From positions 1 to 64,000 of the forward strand of contig CANBNK010000007.1 in NCBI GenBank assembly GCA_947371015.1: a stretch of DNA of 64,000 nt, given 5' to 3'. Source of the stretch: Acetobacteraceae bacterium (GTDB lineage Bacteria; Pseudomonadota; Alphaproteobacteria; Acetobacterales; Acetobacteraceae). Positions 3,834-57,362 of this stretch are shown here, piece by piece (positions within the stretch are counted from its first letter, which is position 1; the number at the start of each line of letters is the position of its first letter). The position numbers were made by a program, and so were the translations under genes. The notes under the pieces were generated by a model. It made no database searches and was not told the DNA's origin. It was given only the letters and a program-made list of their open reading frames with translations.

Positions 3834-4715
3834 ATGCCTGCTCCCCTCATTGGTGTCCTGCTGCAGCTTTCGGCGCTGGCGCTGTTCGTCTGCATGGACA
3901 GCCTGGTGAAGGCGCTGACCGCGCACTACGCCGTGCCGCAGTTGATGTGGGCGCGCTTTCTGTTCAGCCTGCTGGCGGCGGGGCTGTTCATCCGGCTGAC
4001 CACGGGGCACCTGCCCTGGCGCAGCCGGGCGCCAGGGTTGCAGGCCATCCGTAGCCTGCTGCTGGCCGGCTGCAACCTGATGTTCTCCAACGCCTTGGCC
4101 GTGGTCCCCTTGGCGGATTGCACCGCCATCGGCTTCGCCTCGCCGCTGTTCACCGTGGCGCTGGCCAGGTTCTGGCTGAAGGAGAAGGTCAGTGCCCGCC
4201 GCTGGGCCGGGGTGATCATCGGGCTGCTGGGGGTGGTGATCGCGCTGCGGCCGCCCTTCCTGTTCGGCGGCGAGCCGCTGCCGCCGGAGGCGCTGCTGCC
4301 GCTGGGCACCGCGGTGCTGTTCGCGGTTTATCAGATCCTCACCCGGAAACTGGCAGCTATCGACAATCCGCACACCACCATCCTGCATACCGGCCTGGCC
4401 GCCAGCCTGGTGACATCGCTGGCGCTGCCCATGGTCTGGGCGGCGCCGCCGGCTGCCGACTGGGCGCTGTTGGTGGCGCTGGGGGCGCTGGGCGGCGCAG
4501 GCCATGGGCTGCTGGTGCTGGCCTTCGCCCGGGCGCCGGCCAGCCTGCTCTCGCCCTTGTCATACAGCCAGCTGGTCTGGGCGATGCTGGCCGGCGTTGT
4601 CGTCTTCGGGGATTGGCCCCGGCCGGTGGCGCTGCTGGGCATGGCGATCATCGTGGGTGGCGGCATTCTGGTGGCCCTACCGGAACGGCAGCGCCCGGGG
4701 ACCGCCGGGCATTGA
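3834..4715 (+). CDS. EamA/DMT family transporter
   Basis: Ten-helix drug/metabolite transporter made of two EamA repeats of about 140 residues each. The ATG at 3834 is chosen because the upstream 41 codons of the open frame are Arg/Gly-rich and non-hydrophobic, whereas residue 1 from here leads directly into the first membrane helix. The segment AIGFASPLFTVALARFWLKE is typical of the end of the first EamA domain. The last few codons lie in the first unit of a 40-bp tandem repeat (4681-4800), so the hydrophilic C-terminal tail may be repeat-derived. Substrate unknown. Confidence 0.87.
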   Translation: MPAPLIGVLLQLSALALFVCMDSLVKALTAHYAVPQLMWARFLFSLLAAGLFIRLTTGHLPWRSRAPGLQAIRSLLLAGCNLMFSNALAVVPLADCTAIGFASPLFTVALARFWLKEKVSARRWAGVIIGLLGVVIALRPPFLFGGEPLPPEALLPLGTAVLFAVYQILTRKLAAIDNPHTTILHTGLAASLVTSLALPMVWAAPPAADWALLVALGALGGAGHGLLVLAFARAPASLLSPLSYSQLVWAMLAGVVVFGDWPRPVALLGMAIIVGGGILVALPERQRPGTAGH

Positions 4716-4800
4716 GCGTCCGGAACGGCAGCGCGCGGGGAGCGTCGTGCGTTGCTGCCTCGGAACGGCAGCGCCGGCCGACCGCCGGGCGTTAACCCAT
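4681..4800. repeat. Three diverged 40-bp tandem units
   Basis: The 14-mer CGGAACGGCAGCGC occurs at exactly 4681, 4721 and 4761, each heading a 40-bp unit whose second half is more divergent (units 1 and 3 share ACCGCCGGGC). The first unit encodes the extreme C-terminus of the DMT transporter; the other two are in the gap before the methyltransferase. Confidence 0.8.
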
Positions 4801-4841
4801 GCTTGCGTCCGGCCGCCGGCTGGCCTAGCGATGAAGACGCG

Positions 4842-5522
4842 ATGACAGGACCTGTTACCATTCAAGCCGCCAGGCCGCTCCAGGACCAGCCCAGCCACCG
4901 GCGCGCCGCGCTTGACGCGGAAGCGGTGCGCGAGGCGTATCGCCGTTGGGCCGGCGTCTATGACACGGTGTTCGGCGCGGTCTCCGCCCCGGCACGCGGC
5001 CTCGCGGTGGCCGCGGTCAATCGGCTGGAGGGGACCCGGGTACTGGAAGTGGGCGTCGGCACCGGCCTGGCCCTGCCATTGTACCGCGCGGAAAAGCAGG
5101 TGGTCGGCATCGACCTTTCCGCCGAGATGCTGGCGCATGCGCGCCGCCGGGTCGCCGAGCAACGCCTGGGCAATGTCGAGGCGCTGCTGGAGATGGACGC
5201 CGAGGCGATGACCTTCGGTGATGCCAGCTTCGACATCGCGGTGGCGATGTTCACCGCCACTGTCGTGCCGGATGCCCGCAAGCTACTCGCAGAAATGCGC
5301 CGGGTGGTGAAGCCGGGTGGACAGCTGCTGTTCGTCAACCATTTCCGCGCCGAAAAAGGCATTCGCTGGTGGGCCGAGCGCAGCATGGCGCCGCTGGCCC
5401 GCGGCCTGGGCTGGCACCCGGATTTCGCGCTGACCGACCTGCTGGCCAGCGCCGACGAGGCCACCAGCATCGAGGAATGCAAGCCTTTCGGGCTGTTCAC
5501 CCTGGTCCAGGTACCGAACTGA
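4842..5522 (+). CDS. pmtA: PmtA-like phosphatidylethanolamine N-methyltransferase
   Basis: 226-aa class I SAM-dependent methyltransferase. Motif I is EVGVGTGLALPLY, motif II is VVGIDLSAEML, and post-motif features are VAMFTATVVPD and LFVNHFRAEKG, with LGWHPDFAL near the C-terminus. These match the short soluble PmtA enzymes of alphaproteobacteria that methylate phosphatidylethanolamine towards phosphatidylcholine. ATG 4842 is preferred to upstream in-frame starts, which lie in the tandem repeat. Assignment to PmtA rather than a related ubiquinone-type methyltransferase is from motif memory. Confidence 0.75.
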   Translation: MTGPVTIQAARPLQDQPSHRRAALDAEAVREAYRRWAGVYDTVFGAVSAPARGLAVAAVNRLEGTRVLEVGVGTGLALPLYRAEKQVVGIDLSAEMLAHARRRVAEQRLGNVEALLEMDAEAMTFGDASFDIAVAMFTATVVPDARKLLAEMRRVVKPGGQLLFVNHFRAEKGIRWWAERSMAPLARGLGWHPDFALTDLLASADEATSIEECKPFGLFTLVQVPN

Positions 5523-5528
5523 GGGCTG

Positions 5529-5580
5529 CCAGAGCAACATCCGTTCGGATGGAATCATCAGAACGGATTTCTTGCTCTGC
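5529..5580. repeat. CCAGAGCAA...TTGCTCTG inverted-repeat element, copy 1
   Basis: About 52 bp with arms CAGAGCAA (5530-5537) and TTGCTCTG (5572-5579). An inner hairpin is formed by TCCGTTC and GAACGGA. A second element with the same arms and length lies at 26022-26073. No T-run follows, so this is not an obvious terminator. Confidence 0.6.
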
Positions 5581-5592
5581 AACCTATTGAAT

Positions 5593-5643
5593 CTACAGCA
5601 CTATCCGCTCACACTGATCCAGTGTGAGCGGATAGTGCTGTAG
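5593..5643. repeat. Perfect 24-bp inverted repeat with 3-bp loop
   Basis: Bases 5593-5616 (starting CTACAGCACTATCCGC) are the exact reverse complement of 5620-5643, with ATC between. It sits between the convergent ends of the methyltransferase and mntH and abuts repeat R1. It could act as a bidirectional terminator or a cruciform, but it has no U-tract. Confidence 0.85.
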
Positions 5644-5744: not shown

Positions 5745-7066
5745 AGCCCGATCATCCCCGCCAGCAGCTTGCCGTTCAGCACCACGATCAGCGCTGCCGC
5801 CGCCCAGCCCAGTACCAGCTGCCAGCGCGGCGCCACCAGGCTCCCCAGGCGCTTGCGGTCCCCGGCGAACAGCATCAGCGGGATGACCGCGAAGGGCAGT
5901 TGCAGGCTGAGGATCACCTGCGACAGGATCAGCAGCCGCGCCGTGCCGCTCTCGCCCAGCATCGCCGTCACAATCACCGCGGGGATGATGGCCACGCCGC
6001 GGGTGATCAGCCGGCGCAGCACCGGCGGCAGGCGAATCCCTAAAAAGCCTTCCATCACCACCTGGCCGGCCAGGGTGGCGGTGACCGTGGCGTTCAGCCC
6101 GCACAACAGCAGCGCCACGGCGAACAGCACGGCGGCCAGGCCGCTGCCGACCATCGGCGCCAACAGCACATAGGCTTCCTGGATTTCCGCCACCTCGGTG
6201 CGACCGCCGGCATGGAACACCGCGGCCGCGGTGATCAGGATGGCGGAGTTGACCAGCAGCGCCAGGCAAAGGGCGATGGTGCTGTCCAGGCTGGCGAAGC
6301 GGATCGCTTCCTGCCGCGCTTCCGGTTCCACGGCGCGGGACTGCACCACGGCGGTGTGCAGGTACAGGTTGTGCGGCATGACCGTGGCGCCGAGGATACC
6401 GATGGCGATGTAGAGCATGGCGTCGTTCGTCAGGATTTCCCGGCTGGGGAAATAGCCGGCCAACACTTCGGACCAGATCGGCTGGGCCATGGCCAACTGC
6501 ACCGCGAAGCAGCCGAACACGCCGAGGATCAGCCCGGCGATCAACGCCTCCAGCCAGCGGACACCCTTGTGCTGCAGCCACAGCACCAGCAGGGCGTCGG
6601 CAGCGGTCAGCAGGACGCCGAGCAGCAGCGGGATACCAAAAAGTAATTCGAGCGCAATGGCGGTGCCGATCAGCTCCGCGAGGTCGGTGGCGCAGATCGC
6701 GATTTCCGCCAGGAACCAAAGCGCCAGGTTCACCGGCCGCGGAAAGCGGTCTCGGCAGAGCTGCGCCAGGTCCCGCCCGGTGGCGATGCCGATCCGCGCA
6801 CAGAGCGCCTGCAACAGCATGGCCATCAGTGAGGACAGCAACGCGACCGAGAGCAGCGTGTAGCCAAAGGCCGAACCACCGGCGAGGGCGGTGGCCCAGT
6901 TGCCGGGGTCCATGTAGCCGACCGCGATCAGGTAGCCCGGGCCGACGAAGGCCAGCATGCGACGCAGCTGGCTGGCGCCTGGCGGCACCGCCACGCTGCG
7001 ATGCACCTCCGGCAGGCTGACTGCCTGCGGCTCGGGTGGCGCCCCGACCCCCGGGCGCGTCAGCAT
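5741..7066 (-). CDS. mntH: Nramp family divalent metal transporter MntH
   Basis: 441-aa proton-coupled Mn(II)/Fe(II) importer of the inner membrane with 11 or so helices. Helix 1 carries [10 protein letters not shown] (the DPGN metal-binding motif) and helix 6 carries MPHNLYLHT. Length is slightly above the usual 410-430 because of a hydrophilic N-terminal extension. Its TAG stop lies in the end of repeat R1. It is divergent from an ArsR-type metal sensor; a TGAA-N6-TTCA site lies 20 bp upstream of the start. Confidence 0.95.
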
Positions 7067-7086
7067 GGCCGATTGGCGTCAAGGGA

Positions 7087-7100
7087 TGAACAGGTCTTCA
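7087..7100. promoter_or_regulatory. Candidate ArsR/SmtB operator in the mntH-arsR intergenic region
   Basis: TGAACAGGTCTTCA, an imperfect TGAACA-N2-TCTTCA dyad. As I recall the SmtB operator core, it has the form TGAACA-N2-TATTCA. It is 20 bp from the mntH start, where a bound repressor would block mntH, and 157 bp from the regulator start. The match is by eye only. Confidence 0.4.
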
Positions 7101-7257
7101 ATTCTACAGGGCTTCCCTTGATTTTCCAGCGCCTTAGCGGTGCTGTTAACCAGTTGCGCACGTGGCTCCCGCCTGTCAAGACCGATGCGGCGACCAGCGC
7201 CCGCCACGCACCCTGGGTGCGACCTTGGGTGCGGCCCGAGCCTTGAGGAGACACGCC

Positions 7258-7572
7258 ATGCGGATGCGCAGCCGGATCGCCGACGACCAGGTGGTTGAAC
7301 TGGCCGACATGTTCCGCCTGATGAGCGACCCGACGCGGCTGAAGATCATCCTGGCCTGCCTGGACGCGCCGGCGGCGGTGGGGGAGATGGCGGACCGGCT
7401 GGGGATTTCCGCCAGCCTGGTCTCGCATCACCTGCGGCTGCTCCGGGCGGCGCGGCTGCTGCAGGCCGAGCGGCGCGGCCGGCAGGTATTCTATGTGGTT
7501 GGCGACGAGCACATCCGCTCCATGCTGTCGGACATGGTGGACCACGTCTCCGAGGAACCGGCGGAGGAATAG
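7258..7572 (+). CDS. ArsR/SmtB family metal-responsive regulator
   Basis: 104-aa winged-helix repressor. ATG 7258 is chosen because GAGGAG precedes it at good spacing, while the longer frame lacks this. The recognition region is ISASLVSHHLRLLRAARLL, followed by the wing ERRGRQVFYVV. There is no Cys motif in helix 3, so no arsenic/cadmium site. The C-terminal helix carries Asp83, His85, His96 and Glu99, the same spacing as the zinc-sensing alpha-5 ligands of SmtB and CzrA. A metal-sensing role controlling the divergent mntH is inferred. Confidence 0.85.
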   Translation: MRMRSRIADDQVVELADMFRLMSDPTRLKIILACLDAPAAVGEMADRLGISASLVSHHLRLLRAARLLQAERRGRQVFYVVGDEHIRSMLSDMVDHVSEEPAEE

Positions 7573-27294: not shown

Positions 27295-27356
27295 GCGTTT
27301 CCTCGTGGGTTTTGCCCAGGGTACCGGTTGCGCGGACCGCGGCAAAGGGCGGCCGG

Positions 27357-27419
27357 CTTTTTGTTTGAGCGGCTGAGTCACGCCGCCGGTGATTCCACCG
27401 GCGACGATCAGCCTGCTAA
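27357..27419 (-). repeat. CTAG-family repeat, half copy R2
   Basis: About 63 bp matching only the GGTGGAATCACC-hairpin half of the family, in reverse orientation (TTTGTTTGAGCGGCTGAGTC, then GGTGATTCCACCGGCGACGA). Its outer end provides the TAG stop of the adjacent glycosyltransferase. Confidence 0.7.
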
Positions 27420-30978: not shown

Positions 30979-31083
30979 CTAGCGTCTGATCGTCGCTGGT
31001 GGAATCACTGGCGGCGTGAATCCGCCGCTCGATCAACAGTTGAGGTCTGCCAGACGCTTCTCTGCGCCTCTGACAGACCTCAG
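30979..31083 (+). repeat. CTAG-bounded bipartite repeat, copy R3
   Basis: 105 bp starting CTAGCGTCTGATCGTCG, with the core GGTGGAATCACTGGC and the second hairpin TGAGGTCTG/CAGACCTCA. Same orientation as R5. It lies just upstream of rpe in the divergent gap to 31226. The remaining 142 bp up to 31225 shows no clear feature. Confidence 0.75.
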
Positions 31084-37513: not shown

Positions 37514-37747
37514 ATGCCGAGCATGACCGATACTCCCCCGAAGCCAGCCGATCCGGCTGTTCTCCCCATTGCTCCGGCCGCCGACGCCACGCCGGCTGCC
37601 GTCTCCGGCGCTTCCCAAGCCGGGGTGCAGCCAGCGGCCCAACCTGCGGCCAGGAAGCCGCTGCCGCCCGAGATCGGCGGCCCAACCGGGCCGGAGCCGA
37701 CCCGCTATGGTGACTGGGAACGCAAGGGCCGCGTCAGCGACTTCTAG
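37514..37747 (+). CDS. DUF1674/SDHAF4-like succinate dehydrogenase assembly factor
   Basis: 77 aa, Pro/Ala-rich N-terminus and the diagnostic C-terminus PPEIGGPTGPEPTRYGDWER, followed by KGRVSDF. SDHAF4 proteins bind flavinylated SdhA and protect it before complex assembly. The start could also be ATG 37523; the conserved part is unaffected. Its TAG stop lies within the CTAG that opens repeat R4. Confidence 0.9.
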   Translation: MPSMTDTPPKPADPAVLPIAPAADATPAAVSGASQAGVQPAAQPAARKPLPPEIGGPTGPEPTRYGDWERKGRVSDF

Positions 37748-37815
37748 CCTTTGTTCGAGAGACTGATTCACCGCCCCGGCGATTCCGCCTTTGCGGATCC
37801 GCTGATCGTCAGGGC
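37744..37815 (-). repeat. CTAG-family repeat, half copy R4
   Basis: About 70 bp in reverse orientation: CTAGCCTTTGTTCGAGAGAC, then TGATTCACC...GGCGATTCCGCC...GATCGTC. It includes the stop codon of the SDHAF4-like gene and runs directly into the 95-bp repeat at 37816. Confidence 0.7.
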
Positions 37816-47492: not shown

Positions 47493-48596
47493 ATGCCCCC
47501 CTCGTTGAACCGTCGCGGCCTCGGTCTTGGGCTGCTCGGCCTTTCCGTCGCCGGCTGCGCGCAACAGCCGGTGCCGGCGGTGGCGCAGCGCGGCGCTGCC
47601 TTCCTGCCGGATTTCGCCGACCTGGCGGACCGGGTGCTGCCGGCCGTGGTGAACATCGCCGTCACGTCGGAGCAGTCCGGCGAAATGCCGCAGGAGTTGC
47701 GCGGCACGCCCTATGAGCGGCTGTTCCGCAACCGCCGCCGGCAGGAAGTGGCCGGCGCCGGCTCCGGCTTCATCGTCGATCCCGCGGGCTTCGTCGTCTC
47801 CAACAACCATGTGGTCGGCAATGCCACGCGGGTGGTGGTCGCGTTGCAGGATGGCACCGAGCTACCGGCGCGGATTGTCGCCTTGGACGAAGCGACCGAC
47901 CTGGCGCTGCTGAAGGTGGAAAGCCGTACCCCCTTGCCCTCGGTGCCCTGGGGCAACTCGGCGGCGATGCGCGTGGGCAATTGGGTGCTAGCGGCGGGCA
48001 ATCCGTTCCGGCTGGGCGGCACCGTCACGGTTGGCATCGTCTCGGCGCGCGGGCGGGATATCGGCGTCGGACCTTTCGACGATTTCATCCAGACCGACGC
48101 GGCGGTGAACCCGGGCAACTCCGGTGGCCCGCTGTTTAACACCGCCGGCGAGGTCATTGGCATCAACACCGCGATCTATTCGCCGACCGGCGCCTATGCC
48201 GGGATCAGCTTCGCCACGCCGTCCGATATCGCCCGCCCGGTGATCGACGCGCTGATGCATGGCGGCAGGGTGGAGCGCGGCTGGCTGGGCGTTTCGGTGC
48301 GCGACCAGGCTGCCCAGGAGGGCAATGCCCCGGGCCGCGGCGTGTTGGTGGCTGGCGTCGAGCGCGGCAGCCCCGCGGCGCGGGCCGGGCTGAAGCTCGG
48401 CGACACCGTGTTGGCGATCAATGGCGAAAGGGTGGATAGCTCGCGCATCCTGGTGCGTGCCGTGGCAGCGGTGGCGCCGGGGCAGACGGTGCGGGTGACG
48501 TTGCTGCGCGACGGCCGGCCGCAGGAGATAGCGGTGCAGGCAGGCCGGCGGCCGGCGACGGCAGGCGCCGGGGCCGGCGCTGGGCGGATCGAGTGA
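47493..48596 (+). CDS. DegP/HtrA-like serine protease lipoprotein with one PDZ
   Basis: 367 aa. The N-terminus MPPSLNRRGLGLGLLGLSVAGC ends in a lipobox (Cys22), so it is probably membrane-anchored. Trypsin-like triad: His106 (SNNHVVGN), Asp136 (EATDLALLK), Ser210 (NPGNSGGPL). One PDZ domain follows (RGWLGVSV...GDTVLAINGERV). ATG 47493 is preferred over the TTG at 47430 because it begins the signal sequence. Likely envelope quality control; a two-component pair follows after 119 bp. Confidence 0.92.
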   Translation: MPPSLNRRGLGLGLLGLSVAGCAQQPVPAVAQRGAAFLPDFADLADRVLPAVVNIAVTSEQSGEMPQELRGTPYERLFRNRRRQEVAGAGSGFIVDPAGFVVSNNHVVGNATRVVVALQDGTELPARIVALDEATDLALLKVESRTPLPSVPWGNSAAMRVGNWVLAAGNPFRLGGTVTVGIVSARGRDIGVGPFDDFIQTDAAVNPGNSGGPLFNTAGEVIGINTAIYSPTGAYAGISFATPSDIARPVIDALMHGGRVERGWLGVSVRDQAAQEGNAPGRGVLVAGVERGSPAARAGLKLGDTVLAINGERVDSSRILVRAVAAVAPGQTVRVTLLRDGRPQEIAVQAGRRPATAGAGAGAGRIE

Positions 48597-48715
48597 GGCG
48601 GCTGCAAGCCTGTGCTACCTTAGGGCAAATTAACGTCGGCGGCGGCCCCCAGCTTGTAGGATAGGCCGCCGACTCGCCTGGAAATGAGGCCGCTCAAGGG
48701 CCGAAGGAGACATAT

Positions 48716-49396
48716 ATGCGCATCCTGCTGGTGGAAGACGATGCCGAGGTGGCGCGCTTCGTCCGCAAGGGGCTGCAGGAGGCCGGGCATACGGTGGAAC
48801 ACGCCGGCAATGGCCGGGACGGGCTGTTCCTGGCGGCGTCCGAGCAATTCGACCTGCTGGTGCTGGACCGCATGCTGCCGGGCGGCGTGGATGGCGTGCG
48901 CTTGGTGGAGACGCTGCGCAGCCAGGGCAACCGCACCCCGGTGCTGTTCCTCTCCGCCCTGTCCGGCGTAGATGAGCGGGTGAAGGGCCTGAAGGCCGGG
49001 GGCGACGACTATCTCACCAAGCCCTTCGCCTTCGCCGAGCTGCTGGCCCGGGTGGAAGCATTGGGGCGGCGCCCGTCGGTCGATGCGCCGGCCACCAAGC
49101 TGCGCGTTGCCGATCTGGAACTGGACCTGCTCAGCCGTATCGTCACCCGCGGCGCCAAGCGGATCGACATTCAGCCGCGTGAGTTCCGCCTGCTGGAGCA
49201 TCTGATGCGCCATGCCGGCCAGGTGGTGACGCGGACCATGCTGCTGGAGAAGGTTTGGGACTACCACTTCGACCCGCAGACCAACGTGATCGACGTGCAT
49301 GTCAGCCGGCTGCGGCAGAAGATCGACAAGGGCTTCGACAAGCCGCTGATCCATACCGTGCGCAACGCCGGCTACATGATACGGGCGGAACCGTAG
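48716..49396 (+). CDS. OmpR-family response regulator
   Basis: 226 aa: receiver domain with acidic pair EDD near residue 8, phosphoacceptor Asp51 (LVLDRMLPGG), Ser80 and Lys102 (DDYLTKPFAF), then a winged-helix domain (PREFRLLEHLMRHAG...NVIDVHVSRLRQKID). AAGGAGA precedes the ATG at good spacing. Sequence resembles the CusR/TctD branch. The sensor kinase follows after 13 bp. Confidence 0.95.
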   Translation: MRILLVEDDAEVARFVRKGLQEAGHTVEHAGNGRDGLFLAASEQFDLLVLDRMLPGGVDGVRLVETLRSQGNRTPVLFLSALSGVDERVKGLKAGGDDYLTKPFAFAELLARVEALGRRPSVDAPATKLRVADLELDLLSRIVTRGAKRIDIQPREFRLLEHLMRHAGQVVTRTMLLEKVWDYHFDPQTNVIDVHVSRLRQKIDKGFDKPLIHTVRNAGYMIRAEP

Positions 49397-49409
49397 CGGC
49401 GCGGCCGGC

Positions 49410-50840
49410 GTGACCAGTGCCAGCCCGGCGACGCCGATCCTTCGCCCGCCACGGCTGCTGGCCAGCGCCGGCTTCCGCTTCGCCGTGCTGTTCGCCGCCA
49501 TGTTCAGCGTTGCCGCCATCGCCATGGTCGCCGTGCTGTGGTGGGCCACCGCCATTGCCTTGGACCGGCAGACTGACGCCGCCATCCGCGCCGACGCCAT
49601 CGCGCTGACCGAACGCTGGCGCGAAGCCGGGGCGGCCGGGTTGGCTGAGGCGATCGAGGACCGCATCACGGTGGATGTGGAGAACGAGAGCATCTACCTG
49701 CTGCGCCAGGTGACAGACGCTGTCCCGATGCAGCGGCTGGCCGGCAACCTGGAGGACTGGCCCGCCGATACGCCGGCCGATGGCGCCTGGTTCCGCACCC
49801 GCGTAACGCATGACAACAACACCAGCCAGGCCCGGCTGCACCGGCTGGACCTGCCCGGGCTGCAACTGTTGATCGGTCGGGACGAGGACCAGCGGGTGGA
49901 GTTGCGCCGGCTGCTGACCGAGGGCGTGGTCTATGCCTCCGGCGCCGTGGTGCTGTTCGCGCTGGCCGGGGCCTGGCTGATCCGCCGCGCGCTGCAACGC
50001 CGGCTGGGCGCGGCGTTCGAGACCTCCATCGCCATCGCCGGTGGCGACCTGGCGCATCGCGTGCCGCTTTCCGGCCGGGATGACGAGTTCGACCGGCTGG
50101 CGCAGACGCTGAATACCATGCTTGACCGCATCGCCACGCTGATGGCGGGGGTGCGCGGCGTCTCGGACGCCATTGCGCACGACCTGCGCACTCCGATCGC
50201 CCGTGCCCGCGCCAAGCTTGAGGAGGCGCTGGCCAGCGCGCCGCCGGCCCGCACCGCCGAGGGTGAGGCGCTGCGCGCGGCGGTGGAACAGGGCATTGCC
50301 GACCTGGACAATATCAGCCGGATCTTCCAGGCGCTGCTGCGTATCGCGGAAGCCGAGGCGGGTGCGCGCCGCGCCGCCTTCGCGCCCTTCGACATGGTGC
50401 CGGTGCTGGCCGACGCGGCGGAGTTCTACGCCGTGGCGGCGGAGGCGCGCGGCCAGGTGCTGGAGACCGCGTTGCCCGAGCGCCTGCCACTGGTGGGCGA
50501 CCGCGATCTGCTGCTGCAGGCGGTGGCCAACCTGTTGGACAACGCCATCAAGTTCACCCCGCCCGGTGGCACCATCCGGCTGGCGGCGGCGATGGAGGAG
50601 CATGGCGTCGCCATCACCGTCAGCGACAACGGCCCCGGCATGCCCGCCGAGGACCGCAGCCACGCCGGGGAGCGCTTCTTCCGCGCCGACAAGGCTCGCG
50701 CCACGCCGGGCAGTGGCCTCGGGCTTTCGCTGGTGCAGGCCATGGCGCATCTGCATGGCGGGGAACTGGTGCTGGCGGATGCCGAGCCGGGCCTGGACCC
50801 GCCGGGGCTGGCAGCGGTGTTGCGGCTGCCGCGACCCTAG
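49410..50840 (+). CDS. Sensor histidine kinase
   Basis: 476 aa from GTG. Two membrane helices (about 22-48 and 174-192) flank a roughly 125-residue periplasmic sensor. A HAMP-like linker is followed by the HisKA motif SDAIAHDLRTPIARAR (phospho-His257) and the ATPase with N-box NLLDNAIKFTPPGG, DNGPGMP and GSGLGLSLVQAM. Cognate to the upstream regulator. The TAG stop lies within the CTAG opening repeat R5. Confidence 0.95.
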   Translation: MTSASPATPILRPPRLLASAGFRFAVLFAAMFSVAAIAMVAVLWWATAIALDRQTDAAIRADAIALTERWREAGAAGLAEAIEDRITVDVENESIYLLRQVTDAVPMQRLAGNLEDWPADTPADGAWFRTRVTHDNNTSQARLHRLDLPGLQLLIGRDEDQRVELRRLLTEGVVYASGAVVLFALAGAWLIRRALQRRLGAAFETSIAIAGGDLAHRVPLSGRDDEFDRLAQTLNTMLDRIATLMAGVRGVSDAIAHDLRTPIARARAKLEEALASAPPARTAEGEALRAAVEQGIADLDNISRIFQALLRIAEAEAGARRAAFAPFDMVPVLADAAEFYAVAAEARGQVLETALPERLPLVGDRDLLLQAVANLLDNAIKFTPPGGTIRLAAAMEEHGVAITVSDNGPGMPAEDRSHAGERFFRADKARATPGSGLGLSLVQAMAHLHGGELVLADAEPGLDPPGLAAVLRLPRP

Positions 50841-50942
50841 AGTCTGATCGTCGCCGGTGGAATCACCGGCGACGTGAATCAGCCGCACAAACAAAAGGCT
50901 AGAGTCGGTCAGATGCTTCCATGAGCGTCTGACAGACTCTAG
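50837..50942 (+). repeat. CTAG-bounded bipartite repeat, copy R5
   Basis: 106 bp, CTAG at both ends and once inside. Half 1 is a perfect hairpin CGTCGCCGGTG-GAAT-CACCGGCGACG; half 2 is CTAGAGTC...GACTCTAG; an A-rich ACAAACAAAAGG joins them. It includes the kinase stop codon and stands at the downstream side of the exosortase module, inverted relative to R6. Confidence 0.85.
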
Positions 50943-50955
50943 GGCCGGGCGAGGG

Positions 50956-51435
50956 TCAGTCGAAGACGCCCCGCAGGTCCAGCCCTGCGCAGTGCTGGGG
51001 CGGCCCCTTGCCAACGAAGGCCAGGGTGAAGCCTGGAGCCGGACCGCCGCCGAGCCGCTGGCGCAGCGCCTGCCAGGGTGCGGCAAGCCGGTCCAACGGG
51101 GCGGTCGGCAGTACCCTGGTGCCGGCTTCGGTCAGGAAGACCGCTGCGGGGCCCCAGTTGAATTGAACCAGGGCCGCCAATGACGGGTCCGGTGGCAGAA
51201 CCAGGCTGGCCAGGACGCAGAGGCCGCGGCCATGGCGCCGGGCGGTCAGCGAGCCATCGGCCAGCAGCGGCTGGTCTTCCAGGCGCTGCCAGCCCTGGCG
51301 CTCCAGCGCCGTGCTCAGCCGGGCAACGGCGGCGGCCTCCTGGTGGATGGGCACCTGGCCGAAGTGCAGCAAGCGCAGGCCGAGAACCAGGCCGAACCAG
51401 AGCAGCAGCAGGGCAACGGTGGCGCGGCTACGCAT
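50956..51435 (-). CDS. Exosortase-associated single-span protein (EpsI-like position), unknown
   Basis: 159 aa: one N-terminal helix (VALLLLWFGLVLGLRLL) and an extracytoplasmic domain of about 130 residues with two Cys (GRGLCVLASL and GPPQHCAGLDL). It starts 8 bp inside the end of the exosortase gene, so translation is coupled. EpsI-type partner proteins commonly accompany exosortases, but similarity to EpsI itself is not clear by eye. I therefore give only a contextual assignment. Confidence 0.7.
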   Translation of the reverse strand: MRSRATVALLLLWFGLVLGLRLLHFGQVPIHQEAAAVARLSTALERQGWQRLEDQPLLADGSLTARRHGRGLCVLASLVLPPDPSLAALVQFNWGPAAVFLTEAGTRVLPTAPLDRLAAPWQALRQRLGGGPAPGFTLAFVGKGPPQHCAGLDLRGVFD

Positions 51436-52252
51436 GGTCACTGGCGGCGTCGGCGGCCAGCTGAATGGCGCCGGCGGCGGCCAGGCCGAACAGGTTGGCG
51501 CCAACCAGCCCATGCCCCCAGGCAAAGCTGGCCGGCGACCAGGCCAGCAGCCCAAGTCGCAGCAGGTTGATCGCGGCCAGCACGAGCACCAGGCCCGCCA
51601 GCGCCACCACGGTGCGGCGCGCCGTGGATGCGCCCTGGTGCATCAGCAGGAAGCACAGGATGGCGAGGGGCAGGGTCTGGCCGAGCGAGCAGCCGGGCAG
51701 GATGACGATGCCATGGCCGCCGGGCATGCGGAGCTGATGGCCGAGGCGCATCAAGCCTGGCTCGGCGAGCGAGAGCAGGGCGTGGGTAGTCCAGGCTTCG
51801 GCATCGATCAACGGGCCGCCGAAGGCCGGCTGGCCATAGCGTAGCCAGAGCAGGTTGGCGCCGAGCGCTGCCATGCTGAGCGCGCCCAGGCGGGCAGCGC
51901 CGCGGCTTTCCCAGGCGAGGATGCCACCGAAGCCGACCAGTAGCAGGGCGGCCAGCAGAGTGGAGGGCAGCAGCATGCCAGCGGCAAACACCCAGGCCGC
52001 CGGGCCGGCCAGGCCACCGCCGCCAGCCTGACCCAGGGCGCCGCCTCGCCAGAGCGCCCCCAGGGCCAGCCATAGGGCCAGCAACTCCAGCGGGCCGGGG
52101 CTGGCCGATTCGAGCAGCCCCGCGGGGCCATCGGCCCGCCAGGTGAGGATGGCGCTGCCGGCCTGCATGTTGAGCCAGCCGCCGAACAACAGCAGCGCGG
52201 CCACGCGGCCCCACGGCAGCATGGGGGCCCGGCTGGCAGCGGTGGTGCTCAT
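51428..52252 (-). CDS. Exosortase/archaeosortase family membrane protease-transpeptidase
   Basis: 274 aa with about 8 helices. The predicted triad is Cys188 (VILPGCSLGQTLPLAI), Arg232 (INLLRLGLLAW) and His247 (WGHGLVGANLFG). This matches the exosortase order C-S-G...N-x-x-R...H-x-x-x-G. Exosortases cleave C-terminal sorting signals of secreted proteins and probably join them to a membrane or glycan acceptor. ATG 52250-52252 overlaps the stop of the substrate gene (ATGA). The N-terminal extension of the longer open frame belongs to the substrate gene in another frame. Confidence 0.85.
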   Translation of the reverse strand: MSTTAASRAPMLPWGRVAALLLFGGWLNMQAGSAILTWRADGPAGLLESASPGPLELLALWLALGALWRGGALGQAGGGGLAGPAAWVFAAGMLLPSTLLAALLLVGFGGILAWESRGAARLGALSMAALGANLLWLRYGQPAFGGPLIDAEAWTTHALLSLAEPGLMRLGHQLRMPGGHGIVILPGCSLGQTLPLAILCFLLMHQGASTARRTVVALAGLVLVLAAINLLRLGLLAWSPASFAWGHGLVGANLFGLAAAGAIQLAADAASDHA

Positions 52253-53019
52253 GCCGTGGCCGGGCGGCGGCGGCGGCGCAGCGCGCCGACCAGCAAGGCC
52301 AGCAGCGGCGATGCGGCAATCGGTGCGGCGTTGACCGGCACCGCGACGGCACTGGGCTTGCCGGTGTCGCCGGCCGCCACGACAGCCGCCGGAGTGATCG
52401 CCTGGGTGGCGGTGGAAAAGGCCACCACGTTGAACTCGAAGGCCGGGTTGCTGCTGGTGAAGACCACGCTGTCGAAGCCGGACTTGGCGCCGAAGTTGAG
52501 GTTGACCCAGTAGCTGTTGGTGCCGTCTCGCGCCCCGTTCGGGTTGGTGGTGACGGTCTTGCCGGTCAGCTGCTCGACCAACGTGTCGCCCTGGTAGAAG
52601 CTCAGGGTATTGTAGCTGTCGACCGAGCCCCATTGGACGCCGAAATACTGCTGTCGCGTCGAATACCCGACAGTGATGCCGCCCTTGGGCTCGGCGGCGA
52701 AGTAGTTGCCGGTGGTGGGACCGCTGGCGGTATAGGGCGCGGCGGTGACACCGGCGACATTGCCCGAATAGATCCCCGAGGTGCCGGTATAGCTGATGGT
52801 GCCGGCATTGGCGCCGTCGCCAAAGCTGACCGGCTGGCTGCTGACCAGGCCATTGGTGCCACTGCTGCCAAGGTCCAGCACGCTGACGGTGCTGGACTGC
52901 GCCACGGTGGTCAGGCTGGTGGAGATGGTGACGTTGGGGGCCAGGACCTGGGCGCCGGCCGGGGCCGCCACCAGTCCACAGGTCCAGGCCGCCAGACCGC
53001 CGGCAAGAAAGCGTTGCAT
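52249..53019 (-). CDS. Secreted exosortase substrate with C-terminal sorting signal
   Basis: 256 aa with a signal peptide (ending APAGAQ) and a preceding GGAG ribosome-binding site. The mature part is Gly/Ser/Thr/Asn-rich and beta-like, resembling PEP-CTERM surface proteins (e.g. QQYFGVQWGSVDSYNTLSFY). The C-terminus is tripartite: AVPVN at about 226-230, a hydrophobic stretch 231-247, then five Arg (248-252). This is the layout of an exosortase signal but with VPVN in place of PEP. First gene of the coupled three-gene operon. Confidence 0.85.
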   Translation of the reverse strand: MQRFLAGGLAAWTCGLVAAPAGAQVLAPNVTISTSLTTVAQSSTVSVLDLGSSGTNGLVSSQPVSFGDGANAGTISYTGTSGIYSGNVAGVTAAPYTASGPTTGNYFAAEPKGGITVGYSTRQQYFGVQWGSVDSYNTLSFYQGDTLVEQLTGKTVTTNPNGARDGTNSYWVNLNFGAKSGFDSVVFTSSNPAFEFNVVAFSTATQAITPAAVVAAGDTGKPSAVAVPVNAAPIAASPLLALLVGALRRRRRPATA

Positions 53020-53132
53020 TATCTACTCCGACAAAAGATCCGCCGCGTTCAGGCAAATCCAAGGCCGGCAAAATGCGAGGCGTTTTGCCCGGCACACTCC
53101 TACCGAGCGACCGAAGGACGACCTTACGTCCG

Positions 53133-53238
53133 CCAGAGTCTGTCAGGCGCAGACAGAAGCGCCCGACAGACTCTAGCTCATTGTTTTGTCGTGTGATTCA
53201 CGTCTTCGGCGATTCCGCCTGCGACGATCACATTCTAG
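53133..53238 (-). repeat. CTAG-bounded bipartite repeat, copy R6
   Basis: 106 bp, reverse orientation relative to R5 and about three quarters identical to its reverse complement by eye. Shared blocks: AGAGTCTGTCAG, GACTCTAG, TGATTCACGTC and GCGACGATCA. It lies about 114 bp upstream of the exosortase substrate gene. It shares its terminal CTAG with the next element. With that element it fills most of the 340-bp gene-free stretch 53020-53359. Confidence 0.85.
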
Positions 53239-53356
53239 TGTCCTGATTCCGAAGTCCTGCGGCCTTCGTTATCCGGCCACTAGCCTTTGTTTTCAGTGGC
53301 CTGCTTATCCGCTGCGTTCGTGGATAAACCCACGAACTTCGCGGGCAGGACACTAG
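53235..53356. repeat. 122-bp element with 11-bp perfect terminal inverted repeats
   Basis: Ends CTAGTGTCCTG (53235-53245) and CAGGACACTAG (53346-53356). Inner hairpins are GGCCACT/AGTGGCC and TTCGTGG/CCACGAA. It begins and ends with CTAG and has a CTAG inside, followed by CCTTTGTTTT, so it looks like a distant relative of the R family. It has no coding capacity. Confidence 0.75.
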
Positions 53357-53359
53357 CTA

Positions 53360-53842
53360 TCAGTTCAGGTTGCGCAGGGTGCGTTCGGCCCGGCGGCGCA
53401 GGGCCAGCAGCGCCGGTTGCAGCACGCCGGCCTGGTTCAGCGGCCGGGAAGCGTCTGCCGGCGGCAAACTCAGCGTCTGCAAATGCGGGGCCAGCTGGGC
53501 GGCGCAGCCAGGCGCATCCGCCACCGGGCCGCCAGCGGCATTGGGTTGGCAGGGGGCGGCGCCAAGCAACAGCGCCCAGAGCTGGTCGGCTGCGGTCAGG
53601 GCGCGAACCATGTCGTCCAACTCCGCCAGGGTATTCCCCCCGCCAAGGCGCTGCACCCGGATTTCCGCGTTGATCTCGATACGCAGGCTGCGGAGGTCGC
53701 CACGGGTCAAGCCGGCATCCAGGGTTTCGATCAGCCGGGCGAGGGAAAGGCGCAGTTCAGCGGCGCCAGCGCTGGCCGGGACCGGCGCGTGCAAGGCGGC
53801 CAGGATCATCAGGGCGGCGGCGAGGCCTGGGCGGCAGGGCAT
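53360..53842 (-). CDS. Secreted protein, unknown
   Basis: 160 aa from ATG 53840-53842, with a signal peptide MPCRPGLAAALMILAALHAP ending near PASAGA. The mature part is helical, with LSLARLIETLDAGLTRGDLR and two Cys (residues in APCQPNAAGG and APGCAAQL) that may pair. No family recognised. The upstream 23 codons of the longer frame are not signal-like. Confidence 0.7.
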   Translation of the reverse strand: MPCRPGLAAALMILAALHAPVPASAGAAELRLSLARLIETLDAGLTRGDLRSLRIEINAEIRVQRLGGGNTLAELDDMVRALTAADQLWALLLGAAPCQPNAAGGPVADAPGCAAQLAPHLQTLSLPPADASRPLNQAGVLQPALLALRRRAERTLRNLN

Positions 53843-53948
53843 CACGGTCTCCGGGCCGAAGCTGGGTGTGGCGCGGCCAGGAGGGCTGCTGTCCGGGTGG
53901 CAAGCTGGCATCCGTGCGGCGGTGGTACAAGCGGCCTGTCAGCAAGGC

Positions 53949-54578
53949 TCACGCCAGCACCCAGGGCTCCTCGTTCACCGCCGCCACGCGCCAGTCGGCC
54001 CCGTGCTTTTCCAACCGGGTCAGGCCGAGGTTGCGGATGCTGAAGGTCAGCGCCTGGTGGCCGCTCAGGTCCATCGCGTGGGCCAGCGCGGCGCGGATGC
54101 TGCCGCCATGGGCCACCACCACCACGTCCTCACCTGCATGGCGCTGCACCAGCTGTTCCAGCACCGGGCCGACCCGGGCGCGGACACTGGCAAAGCTTTC
54201 GCCGCCGGGTGGCTGTTCCTCGGCGGCGTGCGGCCAGAACGGGTGCGGCGGGTGACGCAGCTTCTCCACCAAGGCTTCATGCGGGATGCCCTGCCATTCC
54301 CCCAGGTGCTGCTCGGCCAGGTCGGGTTCGGTGGCCAGCGTCTGCGCCGGATAGCCGGCGGCGAAGATGGCCGCCGCCGTCGCCTTGGTTCGGGCGAGCT
54401 GAGAGGTGACCCACCGCGCCGGGCGCGGCAGCCGGGCGGCCAGCCAGCGATACAGCGCGGCTTCCTCCTGCAGCGCCACATCGCAGAGCGGCACGTCCAT
54501 GCTGCCGTACAGCATGGCGCGGGCGGTGGGTTCCACCAGGGCATGGCGGATCAGGAACAGCCGGGTTGGCTCGGGCAT
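53949..54578 (-). CDS. Histidine phosphatase (phosphoglycerate mutase-like)
   Basis: 209 aa. RHG-type motif FLIRHALVEPT, with the phospho-His; acid/base region LGEWQG; second catalytic His in VVVVAHGGSIRAAL. Small enzymes of this branch act on varied phosphate esters (alpha-ribazole phosphate, phosphosugars). Specificity cannot be decided. It is 8 bp downstream of an ABC-2 permease gene. Confidence 0.9.
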   Translation of the reverse strand: MPEPTRLFLIRHALVEPTARAMLYGSMDVPLCDVALQEEAALYRWLAARLPRPARWVTSQLARTKATAAAIFAAGYPAQTLATEPDLAEQHLGEWQGIPHEALVEKLRHPPHPFWPHAAEEQPPGGESFASVRARVGPVLEQLVQRHAGEDVVVVAHGGSIRAALAHAMDLSGHQALTFSIRNLGLTRLEKHGADWRVAAVNEEPWVLA

Positions 54579-54586
54579 CAGGGGTC

Positions 54587-55393
54587 CTACTCGCCGATAT
54601 TGAGCAGGGCGCCGCGGATGCGCGCACCCTGGAACTGTGCCCGGAACACCAGGGCCATGGCGCCGAGCCAGAAGAACGCCAGCGCGAAGGCCAGGCCCAG
54701 ATGGCCCCAGGCGATGCCGCCACCGGCCAGCGCCTGGCGCATACCCTCAAAAATATGCGCCAGCGGCAGCGCCTGGGCCACCGGTTGCACCCACCAGGGC
54801 AGCGACGCCAGTGGGTAGAACACGCAGGCGAAGGGCGTCAGGCCATACACCACGGACCAGGCCAGAGCCTCGGCGCCGGCGCCATGCCGCAGGATCAGCG
54901 CGGTGACGCCCAGCGCCACGGCCCAGCCGGTGATTGCCAACGCGATGAAGAACAGCACCACCACCGGCCCCATGCTGAAGATGCCGAAGCCATAGAGCAG
55001 CCAGGCCAGCAGCATCGCCGGGGTGATGCCGACGCAGAGCCGCAGCACCGACATGCCCATCAGCCCCAGCACGAACTCCCACGGGCGCAGCGGGGAGACG
55101 CTGATATGGCCGAGGTTGCGCGACCAGATCTCCTCCATGAAGGAAAAGGTCATGCCCATCTGCGCCCGCAGGGTGATCTCCCACAGCAACGCGCCGCCCA
55201 GCAGCGCGGCCACGGTCATGCCGGCGGCGCTGCCGGCGGTATTGGCGGCGAGGTACTTGGTCGTCAGGCCCCAGACCAGCATTTCCAGCACCGGCCAATA
55301 GGCCAGTTCGACCACACGGGGCCAGGAATGCCGGTACAGCGAGGTGTGGCGATAGATCAGCGCATAAACGCGCCTCGCTGACGCTCTGGTCAT
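54587..55393 (-). CDS. ABC-2 type transporter permease
   Basis: 268 aa, six helices, with the NodJ/export-permease pattern (VVELAYWPVLEMLVWG, then LYGFGIFSMGPVVVLFF and FACVFYPLASLPWWVQPVAQ, LPLAHIFEGMRQ). ATG 55391-55393 is chosen; the 14 extra codons upstream are in the intergenic segment. The partner ATPase gene is not adjacent, so it is an orphan here. Confidence 0.88.
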   Translation of the reverse strand: MTRASARRVYALIYRHTSLYRHSWPRVVELAYWPVLEMLVWGLTTKYLAANTAGSAAGMTVAALLGGALLWEITLRAQMGMTFSFMEEIWSRNLGHISVSPLRPWEFVLGLMGMSVLRLCVGITPAMLLAWLLYGFGIFSMGPVVVLFFIALAITGWAVALGVTALILRHGAGAEALAWSVVYGLTPFACVFYPLASLPWWVQPVAQALPLAHIFEGMRQALAGGGIAWGHLGLAFALAFFWLGAMALVFRAQFQGARIRGALLNIGE

Positions 55394-55462
55394 GGTGCAG
55401 TCCTCAAGCGCCGGGGGCCGTTGCAGCGGCCGCACCAGCGGCCGCCCGGCGCTTGCGGGCGC

Positions 55463-55567
55463 CTAGAGCCCGATTGGCTCAGGCGGAATCGCCGTAAGCC
55501 GTGCATCAGTCTCTCCAACAACAAGCCTAGAGCGTGAGCGCTTCAGTCAGAAGCGGTCACGCTCTAG
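55463..55567 (+). repeat. CTAG-bounded bipartite repeat, copy R7
   Basis: 105 bp with CTAG at both ends and in the middle (AACAACAAGCCTAGAGCGTG). The core is GGCGGAATCGCC. Nearest to R1. It lies between the dehydratase stop (55572) and the ABC-2 permease start. Confidence 0.8.
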
Positions 55568-55571
55568 TGGT

Positions 55572-57362
55572 TTAGTGGTTATGCCGGCTCTCGCCGCGCG
55601 TCTCCAGAATGTTCAGATACAGCGTCGCCGGCTCCAGGCACATCCCAGTGCCGAGTTGGCCGACGATGCCACGCTGGATTTCCTCCCACGGCGTCTTGTG
55701 TACCAGCGCCGGCTTCACCCAGGCGGCGCGGCGGGCGGCGAGTTCGGCGTCCGGGATCAGCACGTCCACCCGCCGGGTGTTGAGGTCGATGCGTATCGGG
55801 TCGCCCGACTTCAGTAGCGCCAGGCCACCGCCCACCGCAGCTTCCGGCGAGACATTCAGGATGGACGGGCTGGCCGAGGTGCCGGACTGCCGGCCATCCC
55901 CCATGGTGGGCAGGCTGTCGATGCCGTACTTCAGCAGCGCCGCCGGCGGCTGCATGTTCACCACCTCGGCGGAACCGGGGTAGCCCACCGGGCCGCAATT
56001 GCGGATCACCAGCACGGTGTGGTCGTCGATGCCGAGGGATGGGTCCTCGATGCGGTCGTGGTAGTCCTCCGGCCCTTCGAAGACGACGACCTTGCCGGTG
56101 AAGACGCCCTTGGGGTCGTTGAGGAACCGCTCCTGGAAGGCTTTGTCGATGACGGAAACCTTCATGACGGCACTATCGAAGATGTTGCCGTGCAGGATGG
56201 CGAAGCCGGCATGCGGCTTCATCGGCGTGTCGTAGGCGCGGATCACCTCGCGATCGACATGCGCGATGTCGGCGACATTCTCCGCCATGGTCTTGCCGTT
56301 GACGGTCTTCGCGTCGCCACGCAGCACGCCGGCCTTCAGCAGTTCATGCATCACCGCGGGCACGCCGCCGGCGCGGTGGAAACTCTCACCCAGGAAGCGG
56401 CCGGCCGGCTGGCAATCCACCAGCAGCGGGATATCGTGGCCGATGGTGTCCCAGTCCTCGATCTGCAACTCCACGCCCATGTGCCGCGCAATGGCGATGA
56501 TGTGCGGCGGGCAGTTGGTGGAGGCCCCGATGGCGCTCGCCGCCAGGATGGCGTTTTCAAATGCGGCGCGGGTCATGATGTCGGACGGCCGCAGGTTCTC
56601 ATGCACCATCTCGACGATCCGCTTGCCGGTGGCGTAGGCCATCTGCCCGCGCTCGCGGTAAGGCCCGGGAATGGCGGCGCAGCCGGGCAGGCTCATGCCC
56701 AGCGCCTCGGCCATGCTGTTCATGGAAAGCGCGGTGCCCATGGTGTTGCAATGGCCGACGCTGGTGGCGCTGCTGGCCACCAGTTCCATGAAGCCATCAT
56801 AGTCCAACTCGCCCCGCGCCAGCATCTTGCGGGCTTCCCAGACGATGGTGCCGCTGCCGGTCAGCCGGCCCTGGTGGTGCCCGTCAAGCATCGGGCCGCC
56901 GGACAGCACGATGGCCGGGATGTTCATGGTCGCCGCGCCCATCAGGCAGGCCGGCGTGGTCTTGTCGCAGCCGGTGGTCAGCACCACGCCGTCCATCGGA
57001 TAGCCGTGCAGGATCTCGACCAGGCTAAGATAGGCCAGGTTGCGGTCATTCGCGGCGGTCGGCCGCTTGCCGGTTTCCTGGATCGGATGGATCGGGAATT
57101 CCAGCGGGATGCCGCCGGCATCGCGGATGCCCTGCTTGGTCCGCTCCGCCAGCTCGATGTGGTGGCGGTTGCAGGGGGCGATGTCGCTGCCGGTCTGGGC
57201 AATGCCGATGATCGGCCGGCCGGATTGCAGTTCGGCCCGGGTGAAGCCGTAGTTCAGCATGCGCTCGACGTAGAGCGCGGTCATGCCGGGGTCTTCGGGG
57301 TCGTCGAACCAGCGCTGGCTGCGCAGGCGGAAGTGCTTCTTGGTCTGGTCGCTGCCGGCCAT
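55572..57362 (-). CDS. IlvD/Edd family dehydratase (sugar-acid or dihydroxy-acid)
   Basis: 596-aa iron-sulfur dehydratase. Cluster-binding cysteines are in IGIAQTGSDIAPCNRHH, TTGCDKTTPACLMGAATMN and SVGHCNTMGTA; Mg/catalytic regions are MGDGRQSGTSASPSILNVSPE. The N-terminus HFRLRSQRWFDDPEDPGMTA resembles pentonate dehydratases more than biosynthetic IlvD, and isoleucine/valine genes are absent nearby. A role on arabinonate/xylonate-like acids is therefore likelier. Confidence 0.9.
   Translation of the reverse strand: MAGSDQTKKHFRLRSQRWFDDPEDPGMTALYVERMLNYGFTRAELQSGRPIIGIAQTGSDIAPCNRHHIELAERTKQGIRDAGGIPLEFPIHPIQETGKRPTAANDRNLAYLSLVEILHGYPMDGVVLTTGCDKTTPACLMGAATMNIPAIVLSGGPMLDGHHQGRLTGSGTIVWEARKMLARGELDYDGFMELVASSATSVGHCNTMGTALSMNSMAEALGMSLPGCAAIPGPYRERGQMAYATGKRIVEMVHENLRPSDIMTRAAFENAILAASAIGASTNCPPHIIAIARHMGVELQIEDWDTIGHDIPLLVDCQPAGRFLGESFHRAGGVPAVMHELLKAGVLRGDAKTVNGKTMAENVADIAHVDREVIRAYDTPMKPHAGFAILHGNIFDSAVMKVSVIDKAFQERFLNDPKGVFTGKVVVFEGPEDYHDRIEDPSLGIDDHTVLVIRNCGPVGYPGSAEVVNMQPPAALLKYGIDSLPTMGDGRQSGTSASPSILNVSPEAAVGGGLALLKSGDPIRIDLNTRRVDVLIPDAELAARRAAWVKPALVHKTPWEEIQRGIVGQLGTGMCLEPATLYLNILETRGESRHNH

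Follow-up and report, generated by a model that had tools for sequence, protein, structure and literature searches.

A probable self-contained exosortase cassette of an unnamed subfamily in an Acetobacteraceae genome, with proposed processing of its adjacent substrate

Standard exosortase systems act on many substrates and are encoded within large EPS loci. We know of no work that settles how exosortases cleave their targets, or to which acceptor the cleaved proteins are attached. EpsH enzymes (XrtA) of the PEP-CTERM system have been proposed to act on the outer side of the inner membrane, cutting the membrane-anchored C-terminal tail of their targets by means of a Cys/Arg/His triad, their motifs being this triad, NxxR, and HxxxG (PMC1569441). 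In Flavobacterium johnsoniae, deletion of XrtF or of its adjacent associated protein abolished zorbs and left much less biofilm (PMC10936215). The CrtB system of Nostoc punctiforme has a PEP-CTERM tail, 35 putative targets, and a polysaccharide locus; five PEP-CTERM proteins, among them Npun_F0296, after which the substrate domain studied here is named, are reported as less abundant in the exoproteome when the exosortase (crtB) is mutated, and of the five only Npun_F4801 was significant after adjustment (PMC12188702). The rhombosortase of GlyGly-CTERM systems, an unrelated enzyme of the rhomboid serine protease type, adjoins its sole target in most single-target genomes, and a single protein family may carry differing sorting tails across genomes (PMC3237569). 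Npun_F0296 proteins, like exosortases and single-target sorting systems, have been described before.

The locus described here lies in the window, the whole 64,000-nucleotide stretch of Acetobacteraceae DNA that was analyzed. It has in common with XrtA/PEP-CTERM a membrane enzyme with Cys, NxxR, and HxxxG, a tripartite C-terminal signal on the substrate, and a C-terminal or adjacent accessory domain, which is EpsI in XrtA and a partner protein here (PMC1569441). It differs in that ten flanking proteins include no EPS genes, the sorting tail is of a non-PEP type, a single target is detected, the exosortase falls below the TIGR04178 and PF09721 cut-offs, and the partner is not detectably homologous to XrtA C-terminal domains. 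With the CrtB system it shares the substrate domain family, and with rhombosortase systems the adjoining of enzyme and sole target and the variation of tails on one protein family. Its likeness to the XrtF system, which has no known substrates, is one of arrangement, an exosortase with an adjacent associated protein, and offers a precedent for a required partner (PMC10936215). In our view the locus is probably an exosortase cassette complete in itself and belonging to an unnamed subfamily, and we propose that the cassette processes its substrate.

Gene order and conservation of the locus

The features of the locus are as follows.

52249-53019, minus strand: substrate gene, encoding a 256-aa secreted protein with an Npun_F0296-type domain (residues 65-196), a signal peptide, and a C-terminal sorting tail
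52261-52347, minus strand: C-terminal tail of the substrate, ...VNAAPIAASPLLALLVGALRRRRR, with an AP motif and (S/T)P, a hydrophobic helix, and an Arg cluster
51428-52252, minus strand: divergent exosortase, 274 aa, with C188, N229, R232, H247, and G251
50956-51435, minus strand: partner, 159 aa, with one N-terminal span and a predicted periplasmic domain containing C73 and C149
53360-53842, minus strand: fourth gene, encoding a 160-aa secreted protein with no family assigned, conserved beside the module
50830-50950, 53132-53245, 30979-31078, 27356-27414, 37738-37789, and 55462-55532: copies of a palindromic repeat

An initial annotation had placed three genes end to start on the minus strand, and their coordinates and frames prove to be right: the substrate and exosortase genes overlap by 4 nt (ATGA, 52249-52252), and the exosortase and partner genes by 8 nt (ATGCGTAG, 51428-51435). 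The same annotation described these three genes as a compact module. Here it stands as to the overlaps and falls short as to completeness, having missed the conserved fourth gene (53360-53842). Of 299 family genomes, four match this gene strongly, one of them being the window's own, and every one of these matches lies beside the module; two additional matches in the family are weak and partial. It is upstream on the same strand in three of the genomes and divergent to the substrate in genome G148, and its protein has no Pfam or NCBIfam match. The conserved unit in the window's genus is therefore four genes rather than three.

All four frames are under purifying selection between the window and its relative L012, with dN/dS values of 0.21 (substrate), 0.34 (exosortase), 0.32 (partner), and 0.18 (fourth gene), obtained with our own Nei-Gojobori script from this single pair, whose exosortases are 85% identical. 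DNA homology between the two is confined to 50942-53094 and 53360-53852, and the compared flanks differ; the four genes thus keep together as a unit while the DNA around them has changed. The annotation's remark that no EPS biosynthesis genes surround the module is borne out by Pfam, which assigns no polysaccharide biosynthesis family to any of ten flanking proteins, five per side (42.8-59.9 kb); one of the ten is a generic ABC-2 permease. Rfam has no match in 48000-56000.

Two further features of the surroundings were observed. An OmpR-type response regulator and HAMP histidine kinase pair (48716-50840) ends convergently 115 bp from the partner gene; it has no homolog in the L012 flank, and in L013 an OmpR-type regulator (4710-5612) is likewise convergent and ends beside the partner gene. 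The palindromic intergenic repeat, up to ~120 bp long (AGAGTCTGTC...GACTCTAG), is dispersed, with some copies partial. The three-gene operon lies between two copies in opposite orientation that share 77% identity over 108 bp, the upstream copy sitting in 265 bp that are missing from L012 and that part the fourth gene from the substrate.

The substrate belongs to the Npun_F0296 family by its match to NF050191 (E 5.3e-22, 78.9 bits, cut-off 29). Its description as a secreted protein with a C-terminal sorting signal is upheld by a Sec-type signal peptide, judged by eye, and by a tripartite tail: the protein ends APIAASPLLALLVGALRRRRRPATA, in which a motif is followed by a hydrophobic stretch and then a basic cluster. 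Cys14 was considered as a lipoprotein site and rejected by eye, as AWTC is no lipobox and the Cys is missing in L013.

Exosortase and partner protein

The triad Cys188/Arg232/His247 is present at the annotated positions of the exosortase. A search for homologs that had lost it found none: C188, N229, R232, H247, and G251 are invariant in all 33 rows of the tree alignment, including four XrtA, and the triad is also invariant in two other alignments (7/7, the window and six others, and 16/16). The motif following Cys188 reads CSLG and thus departs from the Cys-x-Gly given for EpsH (PMC1569441). A hydropathy scan resolves only overlapping segments, compared with the ~8 spans expected for the superfamily, and a profile search of solved structures gives two weak matches, SC_2cx5 (E 0.015) and BB_2cx5_001 (E 0.056).

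In the HMM check proposed with the initial annotation, the substrate matched NF050191, the exosortase stayed below threshold in each model that it matched, and the partner received no family. The best model for the exosortase is TIGR04178 (E 3.3e-4, 20.9 bits, cut-off 23), PF09721 reaches 13.3 bits against a cut-off of 25.7, and TIGR02602 is absent from its model matches. The TIGR04178 cut-off is passed by relatives L013 (24.5 bits) and L036 (24.6 bits), and that of PF09721 by L019. No member scanned attains the cut-off of any named exosortase subfamily model in NCBIfam. Among these models, exosortases R, P, and S are of the same superfamily and give sub-threshold matches to group members, all far below cut-off (XrtR 18 of 150 bits and XrtP 13.9 of 200 in the window; XrtS 27 of 145 in L013), and a literature search on their names returned, among the matches listed, no paper on exosortases by title. 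The subfamily is unnamed; within the collection searched, we found by title or abstract no paper on it, and no experiment on any member.

In the tree of 33 sequences, the window's exosortase falls in a clade of nine (support 87/96), within which seven members of its own family group together (96/91); the four XrtA are split from the other 29 by a branch of length 3.13 (100/100). By the P0002 search, nine of the 299 family genomes hold relatives, the window's own genome among them, and seven of these sequences align over the whole enzyme. A more distant exosortase type is present in G020 and at a second G148 locus, and the G145 sequence (L018) is a partial match at a contig edge. Wider searches find exosortase relatives in at least 8 of 385 class genomes and 4 of 398 phylum genomes (own genome counted in both), and in at least 10 of 239 genomes from the order of G897; these are lower bounds because some genomes appear in more than one draw and scoring covered just 6-10 candidates in each genome. 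Some of the distant exosortases among L030-L037 sit in EPS-like loci, judged by eye from protein N-termini. Separately, in the window's family, proteins ending LPAxxFGWATL...RR (L019:6719-6952 and L020:6432-7298) adjoin two exosortases of another type, which the tree groups with that of L036 (99/98).

The partner is a single-span protein, as first described, with an N-terminal hydrophobic span at approximately residues 1-28; a weaker stretch at 71-90 also clears a loose threshold. Across 13 partner sequences the sole invariant residues are two cysteines, and with nine more sequences both are kept in 22 of 22. All nine members of the window's tree clade have the partner, six of them split and three fused to the exosortase. 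The split ones include the window, L012, L013, and L014, where the partner comes next as its own gene, overlapping or adjacent; the fused ones are L015, L016, and L017, where it extends the C-terminus of the exosortase. This fusion in three relatives argues that the partner is a genuine subunit of the enzyme. Among 11 fresh loci, the partner profile matches in six; the L123 partner was identified by reading (5968-6447, with a 4-nt overlap with the exosortase stop), and none was seen in L124 or L128-L130.

No convincing NCBIfam or Pfam family was found for any of the 13 partners scanned, which give single weak hits (best E 0.005); that of the window has no NCBIfam match and a lone Pfam match at chance level. 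None of the 13 matches TIGR02914 (EpsI-type) at E 1, and comparison with the C-terminal domains of four family XrtA by hhalign gives probabilities of 0.1-0.3%, which amounts to no detectable homology; the XrtA domains used in this comparison bear only a weak resemblance to EpsI (E 0.0087, for one XrtA out of two scanned). At the sensitivity of hhalign and NCBIfam, the identification of the partner as EpsI is unsupported; a functional analogy to EpsI is possible. AlphaFold models, each with one relative, have low mean pLDDT (partner 54.8, substrate 35.0), and the profile search of solved structures returned none for either protein. By these comparisons, the partner appears to constitute a new protein family.

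Proposed processing and number of targets

The best reading of the locus is a minimal, EPS-independent, usually single-substrate exosortase cassette, for which we infer the following route. Sec would export the substrate, and its C-terminal helix would hold it in the inner membrane with the Arg cluster on the cytoplasmic side. The exosortase, acting through Cys188, Arg232, and His247 on the outer side of this membrane, would cleave near the AP...SP motif and would hand the new substrate C-terminus to an acceptor, the protein finally reaching the envelope surface or the medium. The partner is probably a periplasmic accessory subunit that presents the substrate or the acceptor. In its own genome, the exosortase appears to serve one substrate. 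The strongest alternative accepts both the exosortase and the tail as real but has the enzyme trim the protein and release it to the medium with no anchoring; we see this as a serious possibility, if the lesser one.

A second alternative is that the enzyme is an ordinary many-substrate exosortase, merely divergent, with extra targets elsewhere whose tails the profiles miss. The window's genome assembly (5.37 Mb, 248 contigs, 97.8% complete) encodes one Npun_F0296-domain (NF050191) protein, no TIGR02602 or PF09721 exosortase, and no TIGR02595 PEP-CTERM match (77 of 77 candidates scored). The tail profile has one strong match there, the substrate itself (E 1.9e-7; 150 of 313 candidates scored, with a profile that includes this tail and that tails of a different kind would escape); the next hit (E 0.057) reads as lying away from the protein C-terminus. 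Because TIGR02602 and PF09721 miss this exosortase, a second like enzyme is excluded solely by the P0002 and A1 searches, which give one match each (A1 with 6 of 35 candidates scored). As neither XrtA nor a PEP-CTERM protein was found and the tail profile has a single strong match, the system looks single-target in its own genome. One detectable target adjoining the enzyme, with 150 of 313 candidates scored, agrees with the definition of a dedicated single-target system (PMC3237569).

Comparison with other genomes bears on both sides of this alternative. G015 and G161 likewise have no TIGR02602 match, no TIGR02595 match, and one strong tail match each. Three further genomes of the same genus (G106, G204, and G238) have no exosortase, substrate, or TIGR02602 match, and G238 has one borderline PEP-CTERM match (E 0.009). 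In G148, G167, and G099, this exosortase coexists with TIGR02602 and with 16, 38, and 22 PEP-CTERM matches, respectively; since three genomes hold both, XrtA and this exosortase are distinct enzymes. G004 has 23 PEP-CTERM matches and no TIGR02602 hit. Strong tail matches number one each in G004, G148, and G099 and two in G167, and ten comparison genomes have no tail match with E below 0.01. The strongly matching proteins themselves went into the tail profile, so the informative results are how many of them there are and that the comparison genomes give none. Of 18 tested genomes that have the substrate domain and lack the module, 14 carry TIGR02602 above cut-off, and these 14 have 8-40 PEP-CTERM matches each. 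As a side observation, G045 and G137 have 16 and 14 PEP-CTERM matches without TIGR02602, possibly owing to another divergent exosortase.

The many-substrate reading thus draws on the abundance of targets in those 14 XrtA relatives, on a tail search that scored part of the candidates, and on the two tail-bearing proteins of G167. Against it stand the zero counts of TIGR02602 and TIGR02595 in three genomes, the fully supported branch that separates the four XrtA, the coexistence of both enzymes, and the position of the enzyme next to its target, as in most single-target rhombosortase genomes (PMC3237569). We consider it unlikely. Dedication to the substrate, as initially suggested, is supported in the window's genome; it is not a rule of the subfamily, as G167 has two tail proteins and the tail-bearing neighbor of the exosortase in G099 is a choice-of-anchor A protein. 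Membership in a MYXO-CTERM-type system is very improbable and was rejected: the tail reaches 15.4 bits with TIGR03382 but misses its cut-off of 15.85, has no Cys where that motif has an invariant one (PMC11980579), and adjoins an exosortase homolog.

Tail types and related cassettes

Across the 299 family genomes, 42 have a match to the substrate profile, G099 solely via the tail end of its choice-of-anchor A protein. Full-length substrate homologs adjoin the exosortase in six genomes, the window's included, and a search for loss of the tail found it kept in all six Npun_F0296 substrates beside the enzyme. C-termini were read at 30 loci from the substrate-profile search. The six module substrates all have the non-PEP AP...(S/T)P tail; the other 24 comprise 18 with a PEP motif, three with PAP in an otherwise PEP-CTERM-like tail, and three with no tail, namely L054, truncated by the contig end, L069 (G190), and L071 (G140). 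G190 and G140 match neither TIGR02602 nor TIGR02595. These C-termini suggest a tail swap, in which the Npun_F0296 domain carries a non-PEP tail beside the module and a mostly PEP-type tail (21 of 24) elsewhere in the family.

All nine members of the window's clade have an adjacent tail-bearing protein, of which six are Npun_F0296 proteins, one is a choice-of-anchor A protein (TIGR04215; L015, divergently transcribed), and two are short and Gly/Asn-rich. In L106, from another family of the same class, a 102-aa Gly/Asn-rich protein comes after the exosortase and partner and ends in APAPLLASTLLGSGMAMGGGFMAWRRRKRR plus a few residues; it passes the LPXTG_anchor model (16.3 versus 15.9 bits), a likeness of architecture. 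L120, from a third family, is arranged likewise, its protein also being 102 aa long and carrying the tail GAPLPGVALTLLGQVIGVGGLALVYRRRQARK. No polysaccharide family is found among the ten flanking proteins of L106 and L120, five each, or among ten proteins beside five loci of the window's family (L013-L017).

The tail profile A5, built from other loci, was tested on 1480 ORFs of 18 loci kept out of it. Rank 1 is the short protein beside the L123 exosortase (E 0.0012; VPGPIAGAGLPLLLAAAGYAAWRRRKAS) and rank 2 that of L106 (E 0.0052), both matched at the C-terminus; the next hit has E 0.66. The L120 tail is absent among the 30 best A5 hits listed, and the short neighbors in L030, L035, L036, L037, L019, L020, and L121 have no significant A5 score; hence, their likeness and that of L120 is one of architecture only, seen by eye. 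In our own proximity scan of 17 loci, which include tail-defining ones, 12 tail proteins lie near exosortases (70.7 kb) and eight far from them (155.0 kb), L033 among the 12 looking spurious. In 11 fresh loci the counts are five near (43.9 kb) and one far (83.6 kb); one of the five is the exosortase itself and L124 looks spurious, which leaves L120, L121, and L123. L106, L015, and L019 escaped the proximity scan and came to light through reading or in the first scan. L128, L129, and L130, from one genus, are exosortase relatives with no partner or tail protein detected nearby, and L124 has no partner and no convincing tail protein. In L037 (G650), two short secreted proteins (4791-5096 and 6900-7289) with the tail VPGPLEGVGLPF...R bracket one exosortase-partner pair.

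We tentatively suggest, at somewhat less than even confidence, that these loci represent an undescribed, widespread class of minimal EPS-independent cassettes within one bacterial class, each made of an exosortase, a partner with two cysteines, and in most cases a single substrate alongside. The body of the substrate would be freely exchanged (Npun_F0296, choice-of-anchor A, or short Gly/Asn-rich), with enzyme, partner, and tail type kept together, and the partner cysteines may take part in redox or thiol chemistry as the cleaved protein is handed to its acceptor. A three-gene, one-substrate cassette would be about the smallest possible test bed for exosortase action. The apparent tail swap on one domain would set XrtA against this enzyme in a natural experiment on specificity, and both enzymes occur together in three genomes.
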